Assembly (NCBI GenBank): GCA_026708965.1
Contig: JAPOTY010000029.1
Span: 1-62,776 of the forward strand
Reading direction: 5' to 3'
DNA length: 62,776 nt
From: Gammaproteobacteria bacterium
Lineage (GTDB): Bacteria > Pseudomonadota > Gammaproteobacteria > Steroidobacterales > Foliamicaceae
Positions 41,945 through 55,383 of the stretch are shown here, piece after piece (within the stretch, counting starts at the first letter, position 1; each line of letters starts with the position of its first letter). Below the pieces are notes generated by a model that did no database searches, was not told where the DNA came from, and saw nothing but the letters and a program-made list of their open reading frames with translations. A program made the translations under genes and the position numbers.

Positions 41945-42125
41945 TAAGATCCTCGGGGCTTCAGCCAATCAATGCGCTGTTCCAAGCGCGTTGCGTAATC
42001 TTGGCAAACCGCCAAAGGAAATGCAAGGGATAGCCTTGTCCAGTGAGGCATAAGCCTGAACGGGAGGTGTAAATCCAACGAGAGACGAGCCTGCAGGCGT
42101 GCGTTGGGATCATCGGAGGATGATC

Positions 42126-42463: not shown

Positions 42464-42481
42464 CGTATTGGATTACGCTGG
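42464..42481 (+). repeat. Island-flanking direct repeat, left copy
   Basis: CGTATTGGATTACGCTGG occurs here and again, same orientation, at 54350-54367, 11.9 kb away on the other side of the defence genes. Upstream, ATG plus two bases also match in pattern (ATGTC here, ATGCT there). The TTGGATTACGC core resembles half of a palindromic intergenic repeat common in proteobacteria. Confidence 0.75.
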
Positions 42482-42923: not shown

Positions 42924-45900
42924 ATGGCTGCCAAGAGCGAAAATCCACCCATTCGTGACGGCCAAATCCTGACCGGCCCGCTGTTTAGCGAGCCGATGCT
43001 CGTGGAGACGGTGCGCGCCAACGGCTCGGAGTCCTGGGTCGCGGGCTTGGTTGGAACGCAAACGGAGCGTTTCCGCAGGGTCGCACTCTCCACCGACGAC
43101 ATCGCGGATCTCACGATCACCGGCTCCACTCTTTCCTACGACGGAGACGGTCGGCTGCTCAGGCTGGGGCTGGAGGCCCATGCGCTCGGCATCGCCCACG
43201 AGTTCGATCCGTATTTCGGCCTGTCGATATCCCGCGTGGATCCGCTCCCGCACCAGCTGGAAGCCGTGTACGGCCACCTGCTCAAGCTATCAACAGTGAG
43301 GTTTCTGCTCGCGGACGACGCTGGTGCCGGCAAAACCATCATGGCCGGTCTGCTGGTGCGCGAACTCATGCTGCGCGGTCTAGCAGAGCGTGTCCTCGTG
43401 GTCTGCCCCGCTAACCTCGCCTTTCAATGGCAGCGCGAACTCCGCGAGAAATTCGACGAGAAATTTCTCGTTCTCAAAGGCAGCGACATCCGCGATCAGT
43501 TCGGCGTGAACCAATGGATGGAGCAGAAGCGCGTCATCACCTCGCTTGATCTCGCCAAGCGGGACGAAATCCTGCCCGGACTGCGGCAGGCGCACTGGGA
43601 CTTGGTGATTATCGACGAGGCGCACCGCATGTCCTGGTCGCCGCCCGCGAAGAAGACGGCGCGCTACGCGCTCGGCGAACTGCTGCGCGACAGCGCCGAC
43701 CATATCCTCCTGCTCACCGCCACGCCGCACAAGGGCGATCCCAAGAACTTCACGCTGTTCTTGCAACTCCTGGATCAGGACGCCTATGCCGACGTCAAAT
43801 CCATCCGCGAGGCCATGAACCGCCGCCGCGCGCCCTTCTACCTGCGCCGCACCAAGGAGGCGATGGTCTATTTCCCGGAGCGCCAGCCGAACGGCGAGTG
43901 GAATGCCCGTCCTGTGTTCACCAAGCGCACCCCGCAAACGGTCGATTTCAAGATTGACGGCGACGAGCACGAGCTATATCAGGAAATCACCCGCTTCGTA
44001 AAGCGGCAAAGCGTTCGCGCCGCTGCCCAGGGCGACGATCCCCGCGCGCGGGCTGTAGGCTTCCTAATGGCCTTATACCAGCGGCGGCTGGCCTCCAGCA
44101 CGCATGCGATGAGACGCTCTCTCGAGAACCGGGCCAAGCGTCTTGAGGACGGGCTTCAAAGCGCGCAGGCATTAGCCAGGACCGCACCAACAGCAATTCC
44201 CGATCCCGAGGAAATCGAGGAGATGGAGGATGCGGACCGCGAGCGCCTTGAAGCACTGCTCGACGCGATCACCCTAGCTGGAAATGCGGAACAGGTGCGC
44301 GAGGAAATCGGCGAACTGCGGCATCTTGCCCGAAGCGCGCAAGCTGTCGAAGCGGCGGGCAATGAAGCCAAGCTCGCTCGCCTGCGCGATATCCTGCAAA
44401 AGGAGGGCTTCTTCGACGACGCCAGCCAACGCCTGCTGCTGTTCACGGAGTTCAAGGACACGCTCAACTACCTGATGGAGCGGCTCCGGGCCTGGGGTTT
44501 CCAAGTTGGCTGCATCCATGGCGGGATGAAGGCCGGATCGCGGGATGAGCCCGGCACGCGCATCCATGCCGAGCAGCAGTTCCGCGAAGGCGAAATCCAG
44601 GTGCTCGTGGCCACCGAGGCCGCCGGCGAAGGCATCAACCTCCAGTGCTGCCACATCCTGTTCAACTACGACATTCCGTGGAACCCCAATCGTTTAGAGC
44701 AGCGCATGGGGCGCATCCACCGCTACGGCCAAGTCCACGACTGCCTGATCTTCAATTTCGTCGCCACCAACACCATCGAAGGCCGGGTGCTCAACCGCCT
44801 TCTGGACAAGCTCCAAGAGATTCGGGACGCGCTCGATGACGACGCCGTGTTCAACGTGGTCGGCGAAGTCTTGCCGGCCGCACAGGTTGAGCGCGTGTTG
44901 CGCGACTATTACGCGGGCAAGCTCGGCGATGCCGATCTCGAAGACCGCATGCTCAAAGATGTTGACGAAGGCCGGTTCCGCGCCATCTGCCAGACCGCGC
45001 TGGAAGGCTTGGCATCCAAAAGGCTGAACCTCGAAATGCTGGTCGAGCGCCGCGCCCGGGCAAAGGAGCAGCGGGTCGTGCCGGAGAACATCGCCCGATT
45101 CATGCAGGAGTGCGCGCAGGATGCGGACTTGGGCCTGAAGCCGCTGTCGCGCCTCGCGCATACCTTCGATCCGGGCCGCACTCCAACGGCGCTGAAGCGG
45201 TACGAGTTAGCCGAGGATTGGAAACTCCCGCAACTCGCGGCGCGCTACCCCCGCCTGTCAACCGACCGCGAGACGGCGGACGCGAACCACTTGGAATGGG
45301 TCACGCCCGGCCATCCCCTATTTGAGGCGTTGCGCCGCCACGGATTGGATGCCGCGCAGCGCGCCTTCGCCCGCGGCGCATGCTTCTATTCCTTGGGCCA
45401 TGAAACTCCGGCGCGCCTCGATGTGTACCGGGCCAGAATCGTGGACGGCTTGGGCCGCACCATCAACGAGCGCCTTTTCGCCGTGGAACTATCCGGAGAC
45501 GGCGAGCGGCGGCAGCGCGATCCTCATTACCTGATGAATCTCATCCCAGCGGAAACGCCCGATCCGCTCCCGACCGCCGCGTCGGCGCCGGAGGCGACTG
45601 CATGGCTCATGGAAACCGCCCTAGAGCCGTTCCTGAGGAAAATTCGCACTGAGCGGTGCGAAGAAATCGACCGGATTGCCGAACATGTCGAGCTGTCTCT
45701 TACCGAGGTGCTGCATCGCATCGACCAGGAAATCGGACGCGCCGATGATGACGTGAAGAGCGGCAAGCCGGGTGCCAAGGGCCGGCTGGCGCAGGCCGAA
45801 ACACGCCACGCGGACACGCTTGCGCGCCGGGACAAGCGCCGGGATGAGCTGCGCCGCGAGCGCGCCGTAACGTTGCAGGGCGTGGAACGGCTGGCGAGCG

Positions 45901-46325
45901 CGTTGATCCTGCCTCACCCCGAACGCGAGACCCCCGAACTGAAGCGCCTGCGCCCCGATCCGAACACCGAGATGACCGCAATGCGCGTAGTCATGGATCA
46001 CGAAGCGGCGCGCGGCTGCAAAGTCCGCGACGTTCACGAACAGAATCTGGGCTACGACATCACCAGCCTCGACCCCGAATCGGGGGAACTCCGTCTGATT
46101 GAAATAAAGGGACTTGCGGCCTCAACCGGCACCATCATTCTCACGCCGAACGAGCGCCGTGTCGCGGAGGACCGCCCCGACTGCTACTGGCTGTACGTGG
46201 TGACGGATTGCGCTGGCGAGCCGAGGATCAGGGAACCGATCCGCAATCCTGCAAAATCCCCATGGCGCGAAGTCACCAAGGTGCAGCACTACTGGCTGAA
46301 CGTTGATACGATCACCAATGCTTGA
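42924..46325 (+). CDS. SNF2-type DEAD/DEAH helicase with C-terminal DUF3883-like domain
   Basis: A 1133-residue protein. Helicase lobe one has Walker A DDAGAGKT (131-138) and DEAH box (231-234) in LVIIDEAHRMSW. Lobe two has CIHGGMKAG, VATEAAGEGINLQCC and QRMGRIHRYGQ, the arginine-finger motif. A long helical middle section follows, and the last 90 residues read QNLGYDITS, LIEIKGLAA and TPNERRVAE, a PD-(D/E)XK-like DUF3883 domain that may be a nuclease. The architecture resembles the DrmD helicase of DISARM, but drmABC are absent. It is the first intact gene of the defence island; the ATG lacks a strong ribosome site. Confidence 0.88.
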   Translation: MAAKSENPPIRDGQILTGPLFSEPMLVETVRANGSESWVAGLVGTQTERFRRVALSTDDIADLTITGSTLSYDGDGRLLRLGLEAHALGIAHEFDPYFGLSISRVDPLPHQLEAVYGHLLKLSTVRFLLADDAGAGKTIMAGLLVRELMLRGLAERVLVVCPANLAFQWQRELREKFDEKFLVLKGSDIRDQFGVNQWMEQKRVITSLDLAKRDEILPGLRQAHWDLVIIDEAHRMSWSPPAKKTARYALGELLRDSADHILLLTATPHKGDPKNFTLFLQLLDQDAYADVKSIREAMNRRRAPFYLRRTKEAMVYFPERQPNGEWNARPVFTKRTPQTVDFKIDGDEHELYQEITRFVKRQSVRAAAQGDDPRARAVGFLMALYQRRLASSTHAMRRSLENRAKRLEDGLQSAQALARTAPTAIPDPEEIEEMEDADRERLEALLDAITLAGNAEQVREEIGELRHLARSAQAVEAAGNEAKLARLRDILQKEGFFDDASQRLLLFTEFKDTLNYLMERLRAWGFQVGCIHGGMKAGSRDEPGTRIHAEQQFREGEIQVLVATEAAGEGINLQCCHILFNYDIPWNPNRLEQRMGRIHRYGQVHDCLIFNFVATNTIEGRVLNRLLDKLQEIRDALDDDAVFNVVGEVLPAAQVERVLRDYYAGKLGDADLEDRMLKDVDEGRFRAICQTALEGLASKRLNLEMLVERRARAKEQRVVPENIARFMQECAQDADLGLKPLSRLAHTFDPGRTPTALKRYELAEDWKLPQLAARYPRLSTDRETADANHLEWVTPGHPLFEALRRHGLDAAQRAFARGACFYSLGHETPARLDVYRARIVDGLGRTINERLFAVELSGDGERRQRDPHYLMNLIPAETPDPLPTAASAPEATAWLMETALEPFLRKIRTERCEEIDRIAEHVELSLTEVLHRIDQEIGRADDDVKSGKPGAKGRLAQAETRHADTLARRDKRRDELRRERAVTLQGVERLASALILPHPERETPELKRLRPDPNTEMTAMRVVMDHEAARGCKVRDVHEQNLGYDITSLDPESGELRLIEIKGLAASTGTIILTPNERRVAEDRPDCYWLYVVTDCAGEPRIREPIRNPAKSPWREVTKVQHYWLNVDTITNA

Positions 46326-46336
46326 GGGGGTGGATG

Positions 46337-46819
46337 ATGGCGGTGACGTACACGGACCAAGAGATCGAATCACTTATGCGGGAACGTAAATTTCTGCCTA
46401 GTAACTGGAGGAGACGCGCTCGGATGATGCTTAAGCGCGGTCATCAGGAGCGGCACTTCGACATCACCGGTTTCGACGGGAGTGAATTTCGTGTGATTCT
46501 TAGGCAAAGCACGGCCAACGTTTTGGATTTCTCCGCCATTCTCGCAGTGCGCGTCCCGCAATCAAGTCAAGTATTCCGGCTCCGCCGCTACAACGGCAGG
46601 AGCCACGAGCACACCAATCATATCGAGGGACTGTCTTTCTACGATTTCCATATTCATCTCGCAACCGAGCGCTATCAGGAACTTGGGGCTCGGGAGGACG
46701 CATACGCCGAGCCGACGGAGCGTTACGGGACTTGGCAGGATGCTTTGCTCTGCCTGTTCGACGATGCGAGCTTCGATGTTCCACGCGGGCCGCAACGCGA
46801 CCTTTTATTGGAGAAATAA
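46337..46819 (+). CDS. DUF6978-like small protein
   Basis: A 160-residue soluble protein. The start at ATG 46337 is set by GAGGGGG (46324-46330), six bases upstream, overlapping the helicase stop region. It contains FDITGFDGSEFRVILRQS, FRLRRYNGRSHEHTNHIEG and FYDFHIHLATERYQ. From memory this is the pattern of DUF6978, a family with no assigned function that often precedes a DUF1828 gene, as it does here. Several histidines and acidic residues in HEHTN and DFHIH could bind a metal. The family name should be confirmed by a profile search. Confidence 0.65.
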   Translation: MAVTYTDQEIESLMRERKFLPSNWRRRARMMLKRGHQERHFDITGFDGSEFRVILRQSTANVLDFSAILAVRVPQSSQVFRLRRYNGRSHEHTNHIEGLSFYDFHIHLATERYQELGAREDAYAEPTERYGTWQDALLCLFDDASFDVPRGPQRDLLLEK

Positions 46820-46820
46820 C

Positions 46821-47597
46821 ATGTCGATTGAAACGATAGAGCAGGATTTTCACCGCAAGGTGTCGCAGAAAATCCGGTTGTCGGAAGAAGGAATCGAACG
46901 CTTTCGGGTGCTTACTCCGTTTCTGTTCGACGATGGCGACCACCTGTGCGTTGTCCTTAAAAAGAATGGATCGCGGTGGGTGCTCAGCGATGAGGGGCAT
47001 ACCTACATGCACCTGACTTATGACATCGACGAGAAAGATCTGCATCGAGGAACGCGCCAGAAGATCATTTCCAATGCCTTGTCCATCTTCGGCATTGAGG
47101 ATCAGCAAGGGGAGTTGTTGCTCGAAGTGCCTGACGGGCGATATGGAGACGCGCTTTATTCCTTTGTTCAAGGGCTGCTAAAGATCACCGATGTCTCGTT
47201 TCTCGCGCGCGAGCGCGTTCGATCCACATTTATGGAGGATTTTCGGGCATTTTTGATCGAAGCCATCCCCGAGGAACGCATGAACTTCGATTGGAGTGAT
47301 CCAACCCACGATTCTCAAGGGAAATACACTGTCGATTGCCGGGTCAACAGTATGTCCCGGCCACTTCTCGTCCATGGCATTGCAAATGACGCCAGAACAC
47401 GTGATGCCACGATTACCTTGCACCAGTTCGAGAAGTGGGGTATCCCATTCCGTTCCCTCGCCATCTTTGAAGATCAAGAGGCGATCAATCGCAAGGTGCT
47501 GGCACGGTTTAGCGATGTTTGCGACAAACAGTTTTCAAGCCTGGCGTTAAACCGTGACCGGATCACACGCTTTCTGAGCGAGAACATTGCTGAATGA
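46821..47597 (+). CDS. DUF1828/DUF1829 domain protein
   Basis: A 258-residue protein beginning one base after the previous stop behind GGAG. The N-terminal half has the DUF1828 pattern: RFRVLTPFLFDDGDHLCVVL, WVLSDEGHTYMHLTYDI, a region like the restriction-endonuclease fold. The C-terminal half (KYTVDCRVN, PLLVHGIANDARTRDATIT) corresponds to DUF1829. DUF1828 is thought to be related to PD-(D/E)XK nucleases, but catalytic residues are not obvious to me. Its stop overlaps the methylase start by four bases, tying it to that gene. Confidence 0.8.
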   Translation: MSIETIEQDFHRKVSQKIRLSEEGIERFRVLTPFLFDDGDHLCVVLKKNGSRWVLSDEGHTYMHLTYDIDEKDLHRGTRQKIISNALSIFGIEDQQGELLLEVPDGRYGDALYSFVQGLLKITDVSFLARERVRSTFMEDFRAFLIEAIPEERMNFDWSDPTHDSQGKYTVDCRVNSMSRPLLVHGIANDARTRDATITLHQFEKWGIPFRSLAIFEDQEAINRKVLARFSDVCDKQFSSLALNRDRITRFLSENIAE

Positions 47598-50500
47598 TTC
47601 CGCGCCAATGCAAGCGGCTGGCGGAGGTGGATTTTCCGATCGCGGCGGTGTCGCGGCATGCGGTTCGCGAGAAGTCGATCCGCCACGGCCACCCCTCGAC
47701 GCTGCATCTGTGGTGGGCGCGGCGACCGCTCGCGTCGTCGCGGGCGGTTCTTTTGGCGCTGCTGCTGCCCGATCCCTGTGATCCGCACTGTCCCGGCGCT
47801 TTCAAGGAAGCGGCGAGCAAGCTGCTGCCCACGGTGGGCGGCGGGCACACCAAATCCGATAACGATCTGCGCCGCGGGCTCCTGAAGTTCATCGCCGATT
47901 TCGCCAATTGGGATAACGCGGCCAACTCGACCTTTCTCGGTGTCGGTCGGTCGCTGGTCAAGGCTGCCCACGGCGAGGAGGCGCCGCTGGTGGTGGACCC
48001 TTTCGCGGGCGGCGGCTCGATTCCGCTGGAGGCGCTCCGACTGGGCTGCGAGGCTTTTGCCAGCGACCTCAATCCGGTGGCCTGCCTTATTCTCAAGGTC
48101 ATGCTGGAAGACATCCCTCGCCACGGGACGGAACTGGTCGACGAATTGCGGGAAGCGGGCGCGGAAATCAAACGGCGGGCCGAGCGGGAGTTGGCCGATC
48201 TTTATCCCGTCGATCCCGATGGCGCAACGCCGATCGCTTATCTATGGGCGCGCACGGTGCGTTGCGAGGCGCCGGATTGCGGCGCGGAAATCCCGCTCAT
48301 GCGCTCGTTCTGGCTGTGCAAGAAAGCCAAGCGAAAGCGGGCGCTGCGGCATAGTGTCGAGCGTGTCGATGGCGCGCCGCCAAAGGTTTTGTTCGAGGTG
48401 TTCGAGCCCAAGACCGAACGCGAGGTGCGCGCCGGCACCGTAACCCGCGCCAAGGCGACCTGCCTGTGCTGCGGCGCGGTGCTGCCGCCTGAGCGGGTGC
48501 GCCTGCAACTCGCCGCCGAGCGCGGCGGCGCCGACGCGAAGTTCGATGCCGATGGCACCCGTATCGGCGGTGCCCGCATGACGGCGGTGGTGACGCTGCG
48601 CCCCAACAAGAAAGGGCGGCATTACCGGCTGCCGTCCGATGCCGATTACGCCGCCGTTCGACAGGCGCAGACTCGCGTTTCGAGTCTGCTGGAGGAATGG
48701 GAACGCGGAGGCAAGCAGGGCTTGTGCCCGGTCCCGGATGAACCCCTGCCACCCATCGGGACGCTCGGTTTCCGCGTCCAGCGCTACGGAATGCTGCAAT
48801 GGGGCGACCTGTTCACAGCGCGGCAAAAGGTGGCGTTGTTCACTTTGACCAAGCTCATCAAATTGGCCGCCGCGAACAGCCAAAGCACCGATCTGTTTTC
48901 GGCTGCGCTCAGCCGATGTGCTGATCACTGGTCATCTGGAGCGATGTGGATACAGGATCTGGAAGCTGTTGCACACACCTTCGGCAGACAGGCGTTGCCA
49001 ATCGTTTGGGATTTCACTGAGGCATGTGGATTTGCTGGTGGCGGGGCAACATGGGAAGGTCAGGCGCGCTGGGTCGCTAAGGTTGTCGAAACAACCAAGA
49101 CACCCCGAACCGGAGTCGTACAGCTTTCGGATGCCACCAAGCATCCGCTTCCTGACGAGAGCGGCGAAATCTGGTTTACCGATCCTCCATACTATGACGC
49201 TGTCCCTTATGCAGATCTATCCGACTATTTTTTCGTTTGGCTGAAACGTGCGCTTCCCGAAGGAAGGCTCCTTCAGGACCCATTTGATGGTGGGAACCCT
49301 CTGTCTCCAAAGGAACGCGAAGCGGTACAGGACGAAACAAAGTCAATCGGTGGTCGGTCCAAGAACCGCAATTGGTTTGAGGAGAAGATGTCGGAGGCAT
49401 TCGTGGAAGGCCGACGAATTCTGTCTCAAGATGGAATTGGATCGGTTGTCTTTGCACACAAGACTACCGAGGGTTGGGAAGCGCTTCTGTCAGGCATGAT
49501 TCGGGGCGGTTGGACCATCACTGGATCTTGGCCTATTGCTACTGAACGAAGTGCCCGAATGCGCGCTCGCAACTCGGCTGCTTTGGCGACTAGCGTCCAC
49601 CTGATCTGCCGCCCGCGTTCAGAGGATGCTCCTATCGGCGAGTGGGCCGATGTGCTGCGAGAGCTGCCCTTGCGCGTCGCCGACTGGATGGAGCATCTGC
49701 AACAGGAAGGCGTGCGCGGTGCCGACCTGGTGTTCGCCTGCATCGGCCCCGCGCTCGAAATCTTCAGCCGCTACCGAGCAGTGGAGACGGCAGAGGGAAA
49801 GCAAGTCGGTCTGCCGGATTACCTGGAGAAGGTCTGGGAAGTCGTGGGTAGAGCGGCGCTCGAACAGGTGCTCGGCATGGCGGAGGCTTCCGCCCGGAAC
49901 GGGATGGCGGGCGCCTTGGAGGAGGATGCCCGCCTGACGGCGCTGTTTCTTTGGGCGCTTCAGAGCACGGAGGAACAGGGCCGCGACCGCCAAACTTACG
50001 AAGCGCAGCCAAACGACGGCGGGCATTCGATGATCCGTGACGCGCCCGCTTCGACGGAACCGGGCGACGCGCAGGAAGAAGCCGTAGCCAAGGCGACCGC
50101 CAAGGGCTTCCATCTTCCCTTCGATGTGGTGCGGCGCTTCTCGCAGCCCATGGGCATCGACCTCGATCATTGGCAAGGCCGCGTGATCGCCCAAGAGAAA
50201 GGGGTGGTGCGCCTGCTGCCGGTTGCCGAGCGGGCCGAGGCTTTGTTTGGCGCGGATGGCACCGGGAGCGCCACCCTCTGGATCGAGAGCGGCGCGGACG
50301 CGAGCGGGCAGGAGTCGCTCTTTCCCGAATTGGGTGCCGGACCGCAGGCTTCAGCGGAAAAGCGGGCCGGTGGCCAAGTTAGCGCGGATGCCGTTCTGGA
50401 GTCGCCGGATGCCACCGCGCTCGACCGGGTGCATGCCGCGATGCTGCTTCAGTCGGGCGGCCACGCGAATGCGCTGCGAACGCTGATTCTCGCCGAGCAG

Positions 50501-50611
50501 GAACGCGCGCCGGATTTCCTGCGCCTGTCGAACGCGCTGTCCGCGCTCTATCCCCGCGGCAGCCGCGAGAAACGGCTCCTAGACGCTATGCTACTGGCTG
50601 TTCCAAGATAG
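47594..50611 (+). CDS. DUF1156-type adenine-specific DNA methyltransferase
   Basis: A 1005-residue methylase. The N-terminal DUF1156 block contains EKSIRHGHPSTLHLWWARRP. The SAM site is VVDPFAGGGSIPLEA (135-144), and the catalytic motif for N6-adenine or N4-cytosine is DPPYYDAVPY (from 530). Cysteine pairs at about 224 (CEAPDCG) and 290 (CLCCG) form a zinc ribbon. This is the COG1743 type, known from archaeal and bacterial defence islands together with DUF499 ATPases and helicases. It could mark self DNA, by analogy with BREX and DISARM. The last 250 residues are variable and acidic. Confidence 0.9.
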   Translation: MIPRQCKRLAEVDFPIAAVSRHAVREKSIRHGHPSTLHLWWARRPLASSRAVLLALLLPDPCDPHCPGAFKEAASKLLPTVGGGHTKSDNDLRRGLLKFIADFANWDNAANSTFLGVGRSLVKAAHGEEAPLVVDPFAGGGSIPLEALRLGCEAFASDLNPVACLILKVMLEDIPRHGTELVDELREAGAEIKRRAERELADLYPVDPDGATPIAYLWARTVRCEAPDCGAEIPLMRSFWLCKKAKRKRALRHSVERVDGAPPKVLFEVFEPKTEREVRAGTVTRAKATCLCCGAVLPPERVRLQLAAERGGADAKFDADGTRIGGARMTAVVTLRPNKKGRHYRLPSDADYAAVRQAQTRVSSLLEEWERGGKQGLCPVPDEPLPPIGTLGFRVQRYGMLQWGDLFTARQKVALFTLTKLIKLAAANSQSTDLFSAALSRCADHWSSGAMWIQDLEAVAHTFGRQALPIVWDFTEACGFAGGGATWEGQARWVAKVVETTKTPRTGVVQLSDATKHPLPDESGEIWFTDPPYYDAVPYADLSDYFFVWLKRALPEGRLLQDPFDGGNPLSPKEREAVQDETKSIGGRSKNRNWFEEKMSEAFVEGRRILSQDGIGSVVFAHKTTEGWEALLSGMIRGGWTITGSWPIATERSARMRARNSAALATSVHLICRPRSEDAPIGEWADVLRELPLRVADWMEHLQQEGVRGADLVFACIGPALEIFSRYRAVETAEGKQVGLPDYLEKVWEVVGRAALEQVLGMAEASARNGMAGALEEDARLTALFLWALQSTEEQGRDRQTYEAQPNDGGHSMIRDAPASTEPGDAQEEAVAKATAKGFHLPFDVVRRFSQPMGIDLDHWQGRVIAQEKGVVRLLPVAERAEALFGADGTGSATLWIESGADASGQESLFPELGAGPQASAEKRAGGQVSADAVLESPDATALDRVHAAMLLQSGGHANALRTLILAEQERAPDFLRLSNALSALYPRGSREKRLLDAMLLAVPR

Positions 50612-50746
50612 CAGTCATGGCCGAATGAAGGGCGAAGAACGATGCGGCTGTATCTTGGTCGGGCACATTTTGAGCCAATGTTTGCGGCAGGAGCAGGCCA
50701 GCAAAGCCGCAAAGGCAGATAACCGGAACCTGGAAAGGAGAGAATC

Positions 50747-51004
50747 ATGACCCAAGAGGATGAACTGCTAAGACGAATCACCGTGCGCCCCGATGTTTTT
50801 GGCGGCAAGCCTATTATCCGGGATATGCGGATAGCCGTGGAGCATGTGCTGGCTAATCTGGCCGCCGGGGAAACTATTGATGGGCTGCTTGATAACTATC
50901 CGTTCCTTGAGATGGACGATATCCGAGCGTGCTTCCTCTTTGCCCATCGCTCGCTTTGTGGTGAGCATGTGCATGACCGCATCGCAGTGCGGAAAGCTTC
51001 GTGA
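50747..51004 (+). CDS. DUF433 antitoxin
   Basis: An 85-residue protein with the DUF433 signature RITVRPDVFGGKPIIRDMRI, VEHVLANLAAGET and LLDNYPFLEMDDIRACFLFA. DUF433 proteins are VapB45-like antitoxins with a winged-helix fold. The start is behind AAAGGAGAGAATC. A 135-base gap after the methylase suggests its own promoter. Its stop overlaps the toxin start. Confidence 0.92.
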   Translation: MTQEDELLRRITVRPDVFGGKPIIRDMRIAVEHVLANLAAGETIDGLLDNYPFLEMDDIRACFLFAHRSLCGEHVHDRIAVRKAS

Positions 51005-51375
51005 GGTTTCTGATTGACGCTTGCGCCGCGTCACAGCCCGTTCTCGCAGCCCTGAAAGACGCTGGCTGCGATGTCGTGTCTGTTCTCGAGCGTATGCCCC
51101 ACGCCCCGGATGAGGCGGTATTGGCGCTCGCCCTTGAAGAAAACCGCGTGCTTGTTACCGAAGATAATGATTTTGGCGAACTTGTGTTTTTGCAGGGCCT
51201 GCCGCATGCCGGCATCGTGCGGCTGGTTGACATGACTCCTGCGGAGCGAGCAGACATTATGCGATTCTTGCTTGAAACTTACACGGATGCCATGCGTGAT
51301 GGAGCAATCATTGTGGTGACCAAGGGCCGCATCAGGATCCGAAGGCCGCAAAGTGCGGATATGGATGATGGCTAG
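51001..51375 (+). CDS. DUF5615 (Mut7-C-like) PIN toxin
   Basis: A 124-residue PIN-like toxin from GTG 51001, overlapping the antitoxin stop. Acidic residues are in FLIDACAAS (usually DExL; here the second is cysteine-alanine), ERMPHAPDEAVLALAL and LVTEDNDFGELVF. The change of the usual DENLP-type motif to DACAA may lower activity. Its last codons overlap the start of the DUF499 ATPase, so toxin-antitoxin and ATPase translation seem linked. Confidence 0.85.
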   Translation: MRFLIDACAASQPVLAALKDAGCDVVSVLERMPHAPDEAVLALALEENRVLVTEDNDFGELVFLQGLPHAGIVRLVDMTPAERADIMRFLLETYTDAMRDGAIIVVTKGRIRIRRPQSADMDDG

Positions 51376-54229
51376 CCCTTGGTACAAAGTCGTCACTCCG
51401 CGCCGCGAGGTGCGGGAAGGGCGCTCCTTCAGCCCCGACGAGTTCGCGATCGCGCTGGAGCAGGTGGTAGCCGGGACTGCGCCCGCGGACTATCGCGACC
51501 CGGCGCAGTTCTTTTCGCGCACCTGCTTTACCCGCGCCCTCAACGACCACGCCGGCATGGTGCTTCGACGTCTTGCGGGCGAGACGCAGAACACGTCCCC
51601 GGTGCTCACGCTGGTCACCCAATTCGGCGGGGGCAAAACGCACACGCTCACCGCGCTCTATCACTTGGCCAAAACGGGCCGCGATGCCGCAAGCCTGCCG
51701 GGCGTGGCCGATCTGCTGGCCCATGCGGGCGTTGCCGATGCGCCGAAGGCGCAGGTGGGGGTATTCGTGGGCAATGCCTGGGATCCGTCGGAAGGCCGCG
51801 AGACGCCATGGATCGATCTTGCCCGTCAACTGGCGGGCGACAAGGGCGTGGCCGCGCTCGGGGCTGCCGCGAAGACCACGCCGCCGGGCACTGATGCGAT
51901 CGCCCGCGTCTTCGCGGCTGCGAACGCCCCCGTGCTGCTGCTGTTCGACGAGGTGCTCAATTTCGTCAACCGTCATCGCGACCGCGCCGACAGCTTTCAT
52001 GCCTTCATTCAGAACCTGACCGTAGCCGTCACAGGCGCGGCGGGCGCCGCCGCAGTCATCAGCCTGCCGCGCAGCCAAGTGGAGATGACCGACCGGGATC
52101 GGCAATGGCAGGACCGTATCACCAAGGTGGTGCGGCGCGTGGCCCGCGACCTGATCGCCAACGACGAGGCGGAAATCGGCGATGTAGTGCGCCGTCGATT
52201 GTTCGAGGAATTGGGCAGCGAGCGCGTCCGCAAGCGGGTCTCGAAGATATACGCGGACTGGTGCTTCGAGCGCACGGCCCGGCTTCCTTCCGAATGGATG
52301 GCGGTCGATAGCGCGACGACGGAAGCCAAGGCCCGCGAGTTTCTCAGGAGCCGCTTTGAAGCGTGCTATCCGTTCCATCCATCCACCCTTTCGGTATTCC
52401 GGCGCAAATGGAGCGCCCTTGCCCAGTTCCAGCAAACCCGGGGCACTCTCGCCATGCTGGCCCAGTGGGTTTCCTGGGCCGCCCGCCAGCAGTTCCGGGA
52501 GGCGCGAACGGAACCGCTGATCACGCTCGGTTCTGCGCCGCTGCATGTGCCCGAGTTCCGCGCCGTGGTGCTCGGCCAACTCGGCGAACAGCGGCTCGAC
52601 GTGGCCATCGCCGCCGACGTTGCAAGCGACACGGCGCATGCCCGGGCGCTGGATGCCGATGCGGTAGGGCCGCTTCGCGATATTCACCGCCGCGTGGGAG
52701 CAGCCATCCTTTTCGAGTCCTCCGGCGGGCAGGTGGACAAGGTGGCGCATCTGCCGGAACTGCGGTTTGCGCTGGGCGAACCGGAGGTGGAGACCACAAC
52801 CGTGGACACTGCGGCAGCGGCCTTGGAAGCGACGGGATTCTTCATCCGCAAGATCGGGACGGACGGATTCCGCATTCATCATCAGGCGACCCTGAAAAAA
52901 GTCGTCAGCGACCGCCGCGCGGCGTTGGACGAGGACACGGAAATCCAGCCTGCCATCCGCAAGCTGGTCGAGCAGGAGTTCGCCCGTGGCGCCAGCCTGC
53001 CGATCATCCCGTTCCCGGACGACGGCGCGGCCATTCAGGACACGCCCCGGCTGACGCTGGTTGTCGTCGATCCGGAAGTGGAGTGGCGGGCCGGCAGCAG
53101 GATCGCGCAATCCATCGCGCAATGGACCCGCGAGCGCGGAGCATCCCCCCGGCTCTATCCCGCATCGCTGGTCTGGTGCGCCCGGAAGCCCGGGCGCGAA
53201 CTCCGCGACCGGTTGGAGCTGTGGCTCGCTTGGAGACAGGTCGAACGGGAGATGGCGGAAGGCCTGCTCGGCACGGAGTTCGACCGCGCCGACAGGCAGG
53301 AACTGCGGTCCATGGTCAAGGACGCGGAAAACGCTGCGAAAGATGAAGTGTGGGCCGGCTACCGTTTCGTGGCGCTTGCCGACGCCAAGGCCGATTCCGG
53401 GCTGAAGACCATCGACTTGGGCGCGGGCCACAGCAGCGCGAATGAGACGTTGTGCGGGCGGGTGGTCACCGCATTGAAGACCGAAGCGTTGCTCAGCGAA
53501 ACCGTCGGTGCCGGTTATCTCGACCGGCACTGGCCGCCGGCGTTCAAGGAGACGGGCGCTTGGCCGCTCACCAGCCTGCGTCAGAGTTTCCTCAACGGCT
53601 CGCTCACTCGTCTTGTCGATCCCGATGCCGTTCTGCGCCGCAAGATCGTCGAGTTTGTGGGTGCCGGTTCGTTTGGTCTTGCTTCGGGCAACACAAAGGA
53701 TGGGCGCTACGAGCGCATGTGGTTTGCGGAGGCTGTCGGGATCGAGGAAGTTGTCTTCGAGCCAAATGTGTTCCTGCTGACCAAGCCCCGGAGTGACGAA
53801 CTCCGCACACTGGCCGTACGCGAACCCGATCCGCCTTCGATTGTCCCGGAGCCTCCACCTGCTGACCAGCAGCCGGATTCCGGAAAGCAATTGGGAATTG
53901 ACACGCCCGCAACTGCATCCCCGATTCGGCTGCGCGTAACTGGGTCCGTGCCGCCGGAACTATGGAACCGATTGGGCACTAAGGTTATCCCCAAGTTAAG
54001 GTCGGGTGACGGACTTACAACGATGGTCGAATTCGCCGTTGAGGTCATACCCACTGCCGCCGATGACCTAGAAGCGGGACTGCGGCGAGTCTTCGCCGAG
54101 TTGGGCCTGGATCATTGCTTCGTGATTGAGCGATCACAGCAGCTGCCTTTCGCAGATGTTCCGGCTCGCGAAACGTCGGAGCCTTTGGAGGAAAATGGAG
54201 AATGGCTCCCCAAGCCGGACTCGCACTAG
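51365..54229 (+). CDS. DUF499 AAA+ ATPase
   Basis: A 954-residue ATPase. The N-terminus reads SPWYKVVTPRREVREGRSF and YRDPAQFFSRTCFTRALND, then Walker A LVTQFGGGKTHTLTALYH and Walker B VLLLFDEVLNFVNRHRDR. These are DUF499 (COG1483) hallmarks. DUF499 proteins occur with DUF1156 methylases in predicted antiphage systems, where they may sense or move DNA. The start, ATG 51365 or 51368, lies inside the toxin gene. The C-terminal 150 residues (from IVPEPPPADQQPDSGK) contain a linker and a separate domain. Confidence 0.9.
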   Translation: MMASPWYKVVTPRREVREGRSFSPDEFAIALEQVVAGTAPADYRDPAQFFSRTCFTRALNDHAGMVLRRLAGETQNTSPVLTLVTQFGGGKTHTLTALYHLAKTGRDAASLPGVADLLAHAGVADAPKAQVGVFVGNAWDPSEGRETPWIDLARQLAGDKGVAALGAAAKTTPPGTDAIARVFAAANAPVLLLFDEVLNFVNRHRDRADSFHAFIQNLTVAVTGAAGAAAVISLPRSQVEMTDRDRQWQDRITKVVRRVARDLIANDEAEIGDVVRRRLFEELGSERVRKRVSKIYADWCFERTARLPSEWMAVDSATTEAKAREFLRSRFEACYPFHPSTLSVFRRKWSALAQFQQTRGTLAMLAQWVSWAARQQFREARTEPLITLGSAPLHVPEFRAVVLGQLGEQRLDVAIAADVASDTAHARALDADAVGPLRDIHRRVGAAILFESSGGQVDKVAHLPELRFALGEPEVETTTVDTAAAALEATGFFIRKIGTDGFRIHHQATLKKVVSDRRAALDEDTEIQPAIRKLVEQEFARGASLPIIPFPDDGAAIQDTPRLTLVVVDPEVEWRAGSRIAQSIAQWTRERGASPRLYPASLVWCARKPGRELRDRLELWLAWRQVEREMAEGLLGTEFDRADRQELRSMVKDAENAAKDEVWAGYRFVALADAKADSGLKTIDLGAGHSSANETLCGRVVTALKTEALLSETVGAGYLDRHWPPAFKETGAWPLTSLRQSFLNGSLTRLVDPDAVLRRKIVEFVGAGSFGLASGNTKDGRYERMWFAEAVGIEEVVFEPNVFLLTKPRSDELRTLAVREPDPPSIVPEPPPADQQPDSGKQLGIDTPATASPIRLRVTGSVPPELWNRLGTKVIPKLRSGDGLTTMVEFAVEVIPTAADDLEAGLRRVFAELGLDHCFVIERSQQLPFADVPARETSEPLEENGEWLPKPDSH

Positions 54230-54239
54230 GAGTAGCGGC

Positions 54240-54317
54240 GGAAGCCGGAGAGTTTTGGTACTGCCCTGCGGATTGTCACCGGCGGCGGCGCGGGTTCGAT
54301 TCCCGCCGCCAGCTTCC
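54240..54317 (+). other. tRNA- or tmRNA-like 3' arm, possible attachment remnant
   Basis: GCGGG-TTCGATT-CCCGC (54290-54306) is a standard T-arm, and GGAAGC (54240-54245) can pair with GCTTCC (54312-54317) across a tRNA-sized 78 bases. However, five extra bases separate the T-stem from the 3' strand, and no proper D or anticodon arm is seen. It is therefore not a working tRNA. The tail resembles the end of an ssrA gene. It lies just after the last defence gene, where integrative elements leave such fragments. Confidence 0.35.
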
Positions 54318-54349
54318 CTGCTCGCAACTATTGTAGCATCGCCGATGCT

Positions 54350-54367
54350 CGTATTGGATTACGCTGG
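54350..54367 (+). repeat. Island-flanking direct repeat, right copy
   Basis: Second copy of CGTATTGGATTACGCTGG, in the same orientation as 42464-42481. It lies 121 bases after the DUF499 gene and 65 bases before the end of the L,D-transpeptidase gene, so it marks the junction between accessory and housekeeping DNA. Confidence 0.75.
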
Positions 54368-54432: not shown

Positions 54433-55383
54433 CTATCGGGCAGCGGTTCGCGTGTCCCGGATTTCGAGCGAAATCGGCACCGGAACGCCCTTGCGTTCGA
54501 CCAGGGCGCGGCGCATGGACCGCACATCCAATTCGGCGCGCGCCGCCCGGGCCGCCGACTCGAGCCGGGCGACTTGGGCTTTCATATATCCCGGCGGCGG
54601 CTCCTCCAAAGGCTGGTGAACCTCCACATACAGCCGCCCGGCGCGCCAGCCGATCTTCACCGGCTCATTGATGATGGCGACCGGCAAACCGGAAGGCACC
54701 TTCGGAAACAGCCACTCGATATCCTCCGGCAGCATGCGCAGGCAGCCGTGCGTCACCTGCATGCCCACGCCGCGCGGGCGGTTGGTGCCGTGAATCAGGT
54801 ATCCTGGAGCGGATAAGTTGATGGCGTAGTCGCCCAGCGGGTTGTCGGGGCCGGGCGGCACTACGGACGGCAGCGCTTCGCCATCGGCGGCGTATTCAGC
54901 GATGATGGACTGCGGCGGGCGCCACGTTGGCCGAGTGCGCTTGCGGGTCACCTTCCAATCGCCAAGCGGCGTCTGCCAGTCCATACGGCCGATGCTGATG
55001 GGAAACGTCGCCACCATGTCCCGGCCATCCTGGCGATAGTAGAAATACAGCCGGTATTCGGCGATATTCACCACCATGCCGTCACGCGGCGCGTTGGGCA
55101 GCACGAACGCGGTGGGCAACAGCACCGGCGCGCCGTCCGCGGGCACCCACATATCCACGCCCGGGTTGGCATGCCGCATGTCGGTAAAGCCCAGGCCGTT
55201 ACGCCGGGCCATATCCAGCAAGGATTCGCGCCGGTCGGCAGCAATCGTTTGCGATTCGCCCACGATGGTTACAGTGGGCCCCGGAAGAAGAAAATTCTCC
55301 GCCTGCGCTGAAGCGCAAACAGCCATCCCGACAAGCGGGACAAGCGTTGCGCCCCACCGCGATAGACGCTCCGCCTTCCGCAT
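54433..55383 (-). CDS. L,D-transpeptidase (YkuD/ErfK family)
   Basis: A 316-residue exported protein: ATG 55383 overlaps the fabH stop (TGATG), followed by a signal peptide ending in SAQA. The catalytic motif is YLIHGTN with VTHGCLRMLPEDIEWLF, where cysteine is the nucleophile. A LysM-like segment (DMARRNGLGFTDMRHANPG) precedes it. ErfK/YbiS-type enzymes attach Lpp-type lipoproteins to peptidoglycan or make 3-3 crosslinks, and an Lpp-like protein is encoded at 41.6 kb. The C-terminal 60 residues are charged and helical. Confidence 0.92.
   Translation of the reverse strand: MRKAERLSRWGATLVPLVGMAVCASAQAENFLLPGPTVTIVGESQTIAADRRESLLDMARRNGLGFTDMRHANPGVDMWVPADGAPVLLPTAFVLPNAPRDGMVVNIAEYRLYFYYRQDGRDMVATFPISIGRMDWQTPLGDWKVTRKRTRPTWRPPQSIIAEYAADGEALPSVVPPGPDNPLGDYAINLSAPGYLIHGTNRPRGVGMQVTHGCLRMLPEDIEWLFPKVPSGLPVAIINEPVKIGWRAGRLYVEVHQPLEEPPPGYMKAQVARLESAARAARAELDVRSMRRALVERKGVPVPISLEIRDTRTAAR

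Follow-up and report, generated by a model that had tools for sequence, protein, structure and literature searches.

A probable horizontally acquired Hma-type operon with two embedded passenger gene pairs in a gammaproteobacterial genome

Seven closely packed genes in the genome of a gammaproteobacterium raise the question of whether they form an undescribed antiphage system or a known one that carries additional genes. They lie at positions 42924 to 54229 of contig JAPOTY010000029.1 (assembly GCA_026708965.1), of which a stretch of 62,776 nucleotides (the window) was analysed. An earlier look at this DNA (the original prediction) had described them as six or seven co-directional, closely packed genes of a candidate antiphage system with BREX-like logic, possibly an undescribed variant. 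Seven intact open reading frames (ORFs) were indeed found, all on the + strand and tightly spaced (in gene order 8 bp, 1 bp, a 4-bp overlap, 135 bp, a 4-bp overlap and a 23-bp overlap). The locus is very probably a horizontally acquired, restriction-like operon of the Hma (Type-1 BREX-related) kind with two embedded passenger modules, a reading based on matches to PADLOC models, conserved motifs, turnover of the cargo genes, the occurrence of one gene pair outside Hma and the absence of the island from this site in 7/7 genomes of the genus. The three large proteins were best matched by the Hma models of PADLOC (helicase to HmaA: 591 bits, E = 1.4e-177; methylase to HmaB: 393 bits, E = 5e-118; ATPase to HmaC: 310 bits, E = 8e-93), which outscored the listed BREX and DISARM models in each case, and their genes stand co-directionally in the usual order hmaA-hmaB-hmaC. 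By these matches the three-gene core is the catalogued Hma, recently reclassified as Type-1 BREX-related; the BREX-like logic of the original prediction is thereby supported, but the gene set is not an undescribed one, since its core is already in the catalogue under both names. Hma was introduced as a three-gene candidate system found in 26 phyla (Payne et al. 2021, PMC8565338), and its gene set was later placed among DUF499-centred Type-1 BREX-related (BR) systems (PMC12839542). The latter account gives as their parts a DUF499 ATPase with a C-terminal RRM-like domain, a DUF1156 N6-methylase and an SNF2 helicase with a C-terminal PD-(D/E)XK nuclease, assigns PLD-helicase and DUF3780 to Type-2 BREX-related systems, and cites reports by others of a defence role for HmaA. 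The window shares its gene order with Hma (PMC8565338) and the DUF499 ATPase, DUF1156 methylase and nuclease-bearing SNF2 helicase with Type-1 BR systems (PMC12839542); it differs from both in holding two passenger pairs between the core genes.

Conserved residues were read from alignments of 68 HmaA, 80 HmaB and 68 HmaC sequences, window included. HmaA (42924-46325, + strand, 1133 aa) is an SNF2-type helicase/translocase (Pfam SNF2-rel_dom and Helicase_C) that ends in a NOV_C domain (E = 4.2e-20) of PD-(D/E)XK nuclease type; the nuclease-like end suspected earlier is borne out by near-invariant D1045 (64/65), E1060 (65/65) and K1062 (65/66), and Walker K137/T138 and DEAH D231/E232 are conserved. 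HmaB (47594-50611, + strand, 1005 aa) begins with DUF1156 (PF06634, E = 9.2e-22) and carries DPFAGGG and DPPY motifs, the latter kept in 78/78 sequences aligned at those columns. Its proposed zinc ribbon agrees with a conserved, zinc-ribbon-like set of cysteines (C224, C229, C290 and C293, which are Cys in 76/80, 76/80, 80/80 and 76/80 sequences, respectively). HmaB is given as a 5-methylcytosine methylase in the Hma paper (PMC8565338), whereas DPPY in the window points to an amino-methyltransferase. HmaC (51353-54229, + strand; 958 aa from GTG, with ATG at 51365/51368 possible) is, as had been proposed, a DUF499 AAA+ ATPase (Pfam E = 2e-13, ATPase part matched) with conserved Walker A G92/K95/T96 and Walker B D199/E200; a HEPN domain, as in some published Type-1 BR members (PMC12839542), was not matched in it by Pfam. 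BREX membership was rejected, no PglZ or BrxC being among the PADLOC families listed for ten proteins (for the helicase, 25 of 63 families were listed); BrxH models match the helicase, and PglX matches the methylase weakly (14 bits). DISARM was rejected as well, with the helicase scoring 591 bits for HmaA, 388 for DrmD and 223 for DrmA, and with no DrmB or DrmC among the families listed for the ten proteins; the original prediction had likewise seen none of the signature genes of BREX or DISARM. It had also remarked on the lack of a PLD nuclease and of DUF3780, and the Pfam scan of the ten proteins found neither a PLD domain nor DUF3780. This is expected, because both belong to the Type-2 relatives; PLD_Helicase models reach the helicase only via its helicase core (103 bits, residues 504-634 best). 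From the protein families, HmaB would methylate adenine in host DNA, HmaC would serve assembly and scanning, as in the published model, and HmaA would attack unmodified incoming DNA with its translocase and PD-(D/E)XK-type nuclease.

To place the operon, relatives were collected by a scan for HmaB using one genome per species (157 relatives among 160 pattern matches, best 80 kept; the 80 may lack records from the genome of the window itself or from a very close one). A quick HmaB tree of 79 rows split into groups of 22 and 57, with the window within the 22, where its neighbours come from Pseudomonadota, Latescibacterota, Thermodesulfobacteriota, Chloroflexota, Planctomycetota and others, a spread over many phyla which supports wide transfer. 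An HmaB-type match at E = 1e-30 was found in 23/398 genomes of a phylum sample, and relative to the Hma loci of that sample the window's clade is divergent, mostly at ~27-35% identity over longer segments. Within the genus, seven of the eight known genomes were compared (the eighth, 66% complete, was left out). The distance from gspF to plsX is 14.9 kb in the window and 2.6-3.2 kb in the seven genomes, and DNA similarity to them stops at 41957-42028 and resumes at 54466-54482, the break points being 172-177 bp apart in 6/7 of these genomes and ~700 bp apart in the seventh; ~12.4 kb was therefore inserted at this site, where the island is absent in 7/7 genomes. Its flanks are housekeeping genes, with type II secretion system genes upstream and fabH, plsX, NAD synthase and a succinyl-CoA ligase-type gene downstream. 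Near the island edges lies an exact 18-bp direct repeat (left copy 42464-42481, right copy 54350-54367, + strand). These are the only two exact copies in the assembly, near copies with 1 and 2 mismatches occurring in opposite orientation on other contigs of it, and the relatives' regions hold no copy with fewer than four differences. No integrase was identified for the island. A tRNA-like stretch at ~54290-54320, spotted by eye, was dropped, as ARAGORN found no tRNA near it and Rfam none up to E 0.5; Rfam matches inside the island fell under their gathering scores and were taken as chance. Two further DUF1156/HmaB-type loci were seen on contigs C34 (L024) and C9 (L040) of the same genome, the one on C9 with a helicase match and weak DUF499-like matches, so that the genome may hold up to three Hma-type systems. 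For an Anabaenopsis HmaB (L104), the 10 kb to each side contained neither an HmaA nor an HmaC match.

With the core already catalogued, the cargo, whose combination was not found described, is the part worth attention. It sits in two slots, one between the HmaA and HmaB genes (A/B, 46326-47593, + strand), which holds a DUF6978-like gene and a DUF1828 gene, and one between the HmaB and HmaC genes (B/C, 50612-51352, + strand), which holds a DUF433 and a DUF5615 gene. The association of helicase, methylase and ATPase on which the original prediction depended is conserved in homologous loci, and what lies between them varies. The A/B gap was measurable in 67 of the 80 related loci and spans 10-6194 bp (at least 300 bp in 55/67), and the B/C gap was measurable in 68 and spans 39-6489 bp (at least 300 bp in 61/68). 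One locus has an almost empty A/B slot (L072, 38 bp), in another the A/B cargo has decayed (L042), and within one clade the core is ~55-82% identical, yet the cargo differs. Among 262 slot ORFs (picked with a selection favouring the + strand, window included; families named from one representative each), AAA_21 ATPases were present in 20 loci, Schlafen AlbA_2 in 11, DarT with a macro domain in 9, DUF433 in 6, DUF5615 PIN, YhcG nuclease and UPF0175 in 5 each, and DUF3368, UvrD helicase and DUF4276 in 4 each; a strand-blind pick still gave 214 ORFs on the + and 38 on the - strand. A 198-aa protein occurs in 20/80 loci, in the B/C slot only (e.g., L096:8410-8988); its representative had no Pfam match over the cut-off and no PADLOC match, and it is possibly an accessory Hma gene of the other clade. 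Mapped on the HmaB tree, AAA_21 changed 16 times per 19 rows, the 198-aa protein 16 per 20, Schlafen 8 per 10, DarTG 8 per 9 and YhcG 4 per 5.

Judged by these sequences, Hma has two cargo slots with exchangeable toxin-antitoxin (TA) and defence genes. It would be a chassis whose contents turn over fast, and neighbours of the core are therefore not to be read as parts of the machine; the passengers would share the gene string and evolve apart from the core. Some observations weigh against this reading. Gene packing of 8 bp, 1 bp and -4 bp also fits functional parts of one machine; the cargo labels score an unsequenced slot as absent, and the HmaB tree is a quick one; and the DUF433-PIN pair shows 2 changes per 5 tree rows as against 4.9 in shuffles, so that this pair may have been associated with part of the clade for a long time. 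The embedding of defence genes in Hma is itself published, with "Hma-embedded candidates" and guilt-by-embedding cited in later papers and some Hma-embedded genes reported to defend, so the cargo view is not new. A close parallel is DarTG2 in a type I restriction-modification operon (the RptR island, PMC12255303), likewise a two-gene module embedded between restriction core genes; the window genes are different ones, and DarT-macro occupies Hma slots elsewhere, not in the window.

The B/C passenger consists of a DUF433 protein (50747-51004, + strand, 85 aa; PF04255, E = 5.9e-21), the predicted antitoxin, and a DUF5615 PIN-like protein (51001-51375, + strand, 124 aa; PF18480, E = 1.1e-20; PIN_10 at 3.4e-5, under its cut-off), the predicted RNase toxin. 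tblastn matched DUF433 in 6/80 related Hma loci and DUF5615 in 4/80, and D6, D24, D37, D55 and D57 of DUF5615 are kept in 5/5 sequences, window included. The layout is that of PIN-type TA pairs, with DUF433 overlapping DUF5615 by 4 bp and the PIN-like acidic residues conserved, and the two genes are predicted to form a PIN-type TA passenger; a literature search found no paper combining DUF433 with DUF5615. The resemblance to VapBC-type pairs, and the presence of other TA families in the slots (e.g., DarT-macro, and UPF0175 with DUF3368), would also suit plain addiction modules that stabilise the island and have no antiphage function. As an account of the passengers we consider this doubtful, because a defence role is known or has been proposed for several of the cargo families (OLD-type ATPases, Schlafen, DarTG) and some Hma-embedded genes are reported to defend. 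Under the Hma-plus-passengers reading, the DUF433-PIN pair would act as an RNase TA module, and both passengers would most likely be independent second-layer effectors, plausibly abortive, that come into play on failure or blockage of the core.

The A/B passenger is a DUF6978-like protein (46334-46819, + strand, 161 aa) followed by a DUF1828 protein (46821-47597, + strand, 258 aa). Both starts were re-assigned from the sequence, the first set at ATG 46334 and the second moved from TTG 46683 to ATG 46821, which matches the length of relatives, and the two genes are therefore 1 bp apart. The profile search of all seven proteins confirmed their DUF labels, with the reservation that DUF6978 (PF22398) scored 21.3 bits, under the Pfam cut-off of 29.6; the label was accepted because the pair organisation and a common motif support it. 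DUF1828 is matched by PF08861 (E = 3e-25) and by the PADLOC model PDC-M24B (E = 1.1e-20), and PDC-M24 is an unvalidated phage defence candidate of PADLOC. The DUF6978-like protein of the window had no PADLOC match, even at E 10; PDC-M24A models match 5/6 other DUF6978-type partners scanned (188 to 33 bits; L138 unmatched), and this, together with PDC-M24B on the window's DUF1828, makes the pair a divergent PDC-M24. By the models it is a relative and not a strict member, sharing with PDC-M24 the arrangement of a DUF1828 gene coupled behind a small one of DUF6978 type, and differing in that the PDC-M24A models do not detect its first gene and in its location inside Hma. Literature searches found PDC-M24 in no paper; DUF1828 turned up in two and DUF6978 in one, with a single mention each and under titles that do not deal with defence. 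No published report of the window's cargo combination was found, although the Payne 2024 preprint, which defines PDC candidates, could describe PDC-M24 inside Hma. The coupling of the two genes is general. Among 20 DUF1828 genes of genomic, plasmid and phage origin, 18 are closely preceded by an ORF on the same strand (86-175 aa, 15 overlapping; one counted by its annotated start), with no partner in L136 and a doubtful one in L146; the DUF6978 profile matches 10/18 of these ORFs. K19, H91, H106 and H108 of DUF6978 are invariant and R85 nearly so in an alignment of 16 partners (A2), only H106 and H108 are invariant in one of 19, of which two lack their start (A4), and H91, H106 and H108 are invariant in one of 15 (A7). 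In DUF1828, D40, D57 and D172 are invariant in 18/18 aligned sequences.

Had the two proteins been obligate components of an undescribed system, placed between helicase and methylase, they should recur there, which the original prediction had proposed to check, and they do not: by tblastn and profiles, DUF1828 was found in 1/80 Hma loci (L042) and DUF6978 in 0/80, with the A/B slot readable in 67, and neither had a match in 25 regions taken from the phylum sample (L016-L040, several partial). Both were ruled out as Hma signature genes on these counts. The close, co-directional packing of the window genes would suit such a system, and the nearest relative, L042, still has the N-terminal portion of a DUF1828 at this position, immediately 5' of hmaB. 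Against this stand the 79/80 loci unmatched for DUF1828, the A/B slot of only 38 bp in L072 and the frequency of the pair without Hma, so that we regard obligate membership as highly improbable. As the pair does not recur in the slot, the gene set is therefore Hma plus passengers, not a new system.

Structure models add some detail on the pair. DUF6978 was modelled well (predicted local distance difference test, pLDDT, 89.6; predicted template modelling score, pTM, 0.85) as mostly antiparallel beta, with H106 and H108 alternating on strand 106-109 and H91 preceding that strand, and had no structural match at E 0.001 in PDB or BFVD; the model suggests that the histidines form a catalytic or metal-binding cluster. 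DUF1828 was modelled in two parts (pLDDT 90.2, pTM 0.52) with a weak linker at 131-134; the first part is equivalent to the truncated DUF1828 of L042 and to the L015 copy of 148 aa. Its fold search gave weak matches with low TM-scores among many unrelated ones (SfsA, E = 0.009; Can2, 0.14; HincII, 0.47), all three of them PD-(D/E)XK-type proteins. The C-terminal domain may accordingly have such a fold; a nuclease is not claimed, and no conserved (D/E)xK pair is present in the 18 aligned DUF1828. Sequence searches of the PDB gave no convincing relative of either protein (best E 0.013 and 0.4).

Outside Hma the pair is found on mobile elements and beside restriction genes. In Pseudomonas phage phita81A it follows cI at a distance of one small gene; in Lactobacillus prophage Lj965 it has a regulator on one side and superinfection exclusion/integrase genes on the other; and it adjoins an integrase in Staphylococcus phage 37 and a Staphylococcus plasmid; in a Streptococcus satellite phage DUF1828 stands by the integrase, and only DUF1828 is evident. 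Further copies are on an IncP plasmid and in a haloarchaeal virus, other plasmid copies lie among unrelated genes, and the closest complete pair found is on a viral contig (DUF1828 65% identical). In the window's own phylum (the first phylum), the set consisted of the window and 15 further loci (L147, with a weak partial DUF6978 hit and no DUF1828, was dropped), and 10/16 loci, window included, are inside or beside DNA-methylation-based systems (within ~3 kb; L014 farther). The neighbours are type I systems in L014, L137 and L141, type IIG in L138, L139 and L140, a DrmMI/IIG-like methylase in L012, a C5 methylase in L015 and BREX III in L136 (DUF1828 only); the pair of L137 and that of L014 are flanked by hsdS and hsdR, and that of L013 adjoins a PDDEXK_4 nuclease. 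The remaining loci L142-L146 had no panel match, with one or two neighbours profile-scanned in L142, L143 and L146 and none in L144 and L145. The BREX III locus is among the closest counterparts of the window: brxC and pglXI enclose a DUF1828 that shares 62% identity with that of the window, in a BREX core and with no DUF6978 partner found, whereas the window joins Hma with DUF6978. That locus also carries a Ppl match.

PrrC is known as a guard of a restriction machine that triggers an abortive response. By analogy, PDC-M24 might be a dedicated guard of methylation-based restriction, unleashing an abortive nuclease once it detects that the machine has been blocked or lost; PARIS acts in a like manner (PMC12839542). 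The neighbourhoods in the first phylum favour such a role, with type I, IIG, DrmMI-like, C5-methylase, BREX III or Hma genes at 10/16 loci and a panel match, a weak helicase segment, in 1/20 control regions from the same genomes (Fisher P = 3e-5 for 10/16 against 0/20, helicase match uncounted; P = 6e-4 for 9/15 against 1/20), in a test for which the test loci supplied most panel proteins and received a deeper scan than the controls. The control scan of 72 proteins gave 32 families, with no restriction endonuclease or methyltransferase model among the 25 listed, but with four hits among them (mad3 in 3 proteins, mad6 in 1) to models of MADS, a methylation-associated defence system. The second phylum is the one to which the Bacteroidetes genome of L098 belongs; there DUF1828 occurs in 52/395 genomes, and 20 of the top 24 best-scoring places were used (excluding those <5 kb from the contig's first base; contig ends truncate four of the regions, and near-duplicates seem to be among them). 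A DUF6978-profile match was present in 18/20 of these loci and a loose R-H-HxH pattern in 15/16 with an assessable upstream ORF. A clear type I system was found in 2/20, with the pair between hsdS and hsdR in L216 and between hsdM and hsdS in L223, and a third locus had a weak HsdR-like match, against 0/20 controls, a small difference. Thus the first phylum shows a strong association with restriction, which the second did not confirm at the same strength, and around several prophage copies the flanks shown carry no annotated restriction gene; we hold a dedicated guard to be unlikely. Among the 25 of 276 families listed for 59/73 neighbouring proteins from 18 of the 20 second-phylum loci, pAgo was matched in 3 proteins, type II methylase and type I restriction endonuclease in 2, and type III and Dpd models in 1, and a defence setting of the pair in this phylum is likely from these matches. 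In one of these loci a long Argonaute gene lies just downstream of the pair (L219:2651-6214; PADLOC pAgo, 1645 bits).

Returning to the pair as a passenger of Hma, the DUF6978 protein with its histidine cluster would be the effector and the larger DUF1828 its partner. That PDC-M24 in general combines an effector with a sensor or inhibitor is a tentative reading, short of an even case. A bolder version, in which PDC-M24 would be a mobile guard, DUF6978 a new metal-independent nuclease effector (K, R, H...HxH) and the two-domain DUF1828 a sensor or inhibitor that responds to the restriction complex or DNA, is likewise unlikely; if true, one guard module would be common to Hma, BREX III, type I and type IIG systems and prophages. 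PDC-M24 stands out among the cargo as a passenger of several systems, with no known fold relative found and with clear candidate catalytic residues. The window's own genome holds a second DUF6978-DUF1828 pair (L015, contig C37), with a DUF1828 of 148 aa and near a C5 DNA methylase, and a stretch of this locus is 77% identical to the methylase beside the L012 pair.

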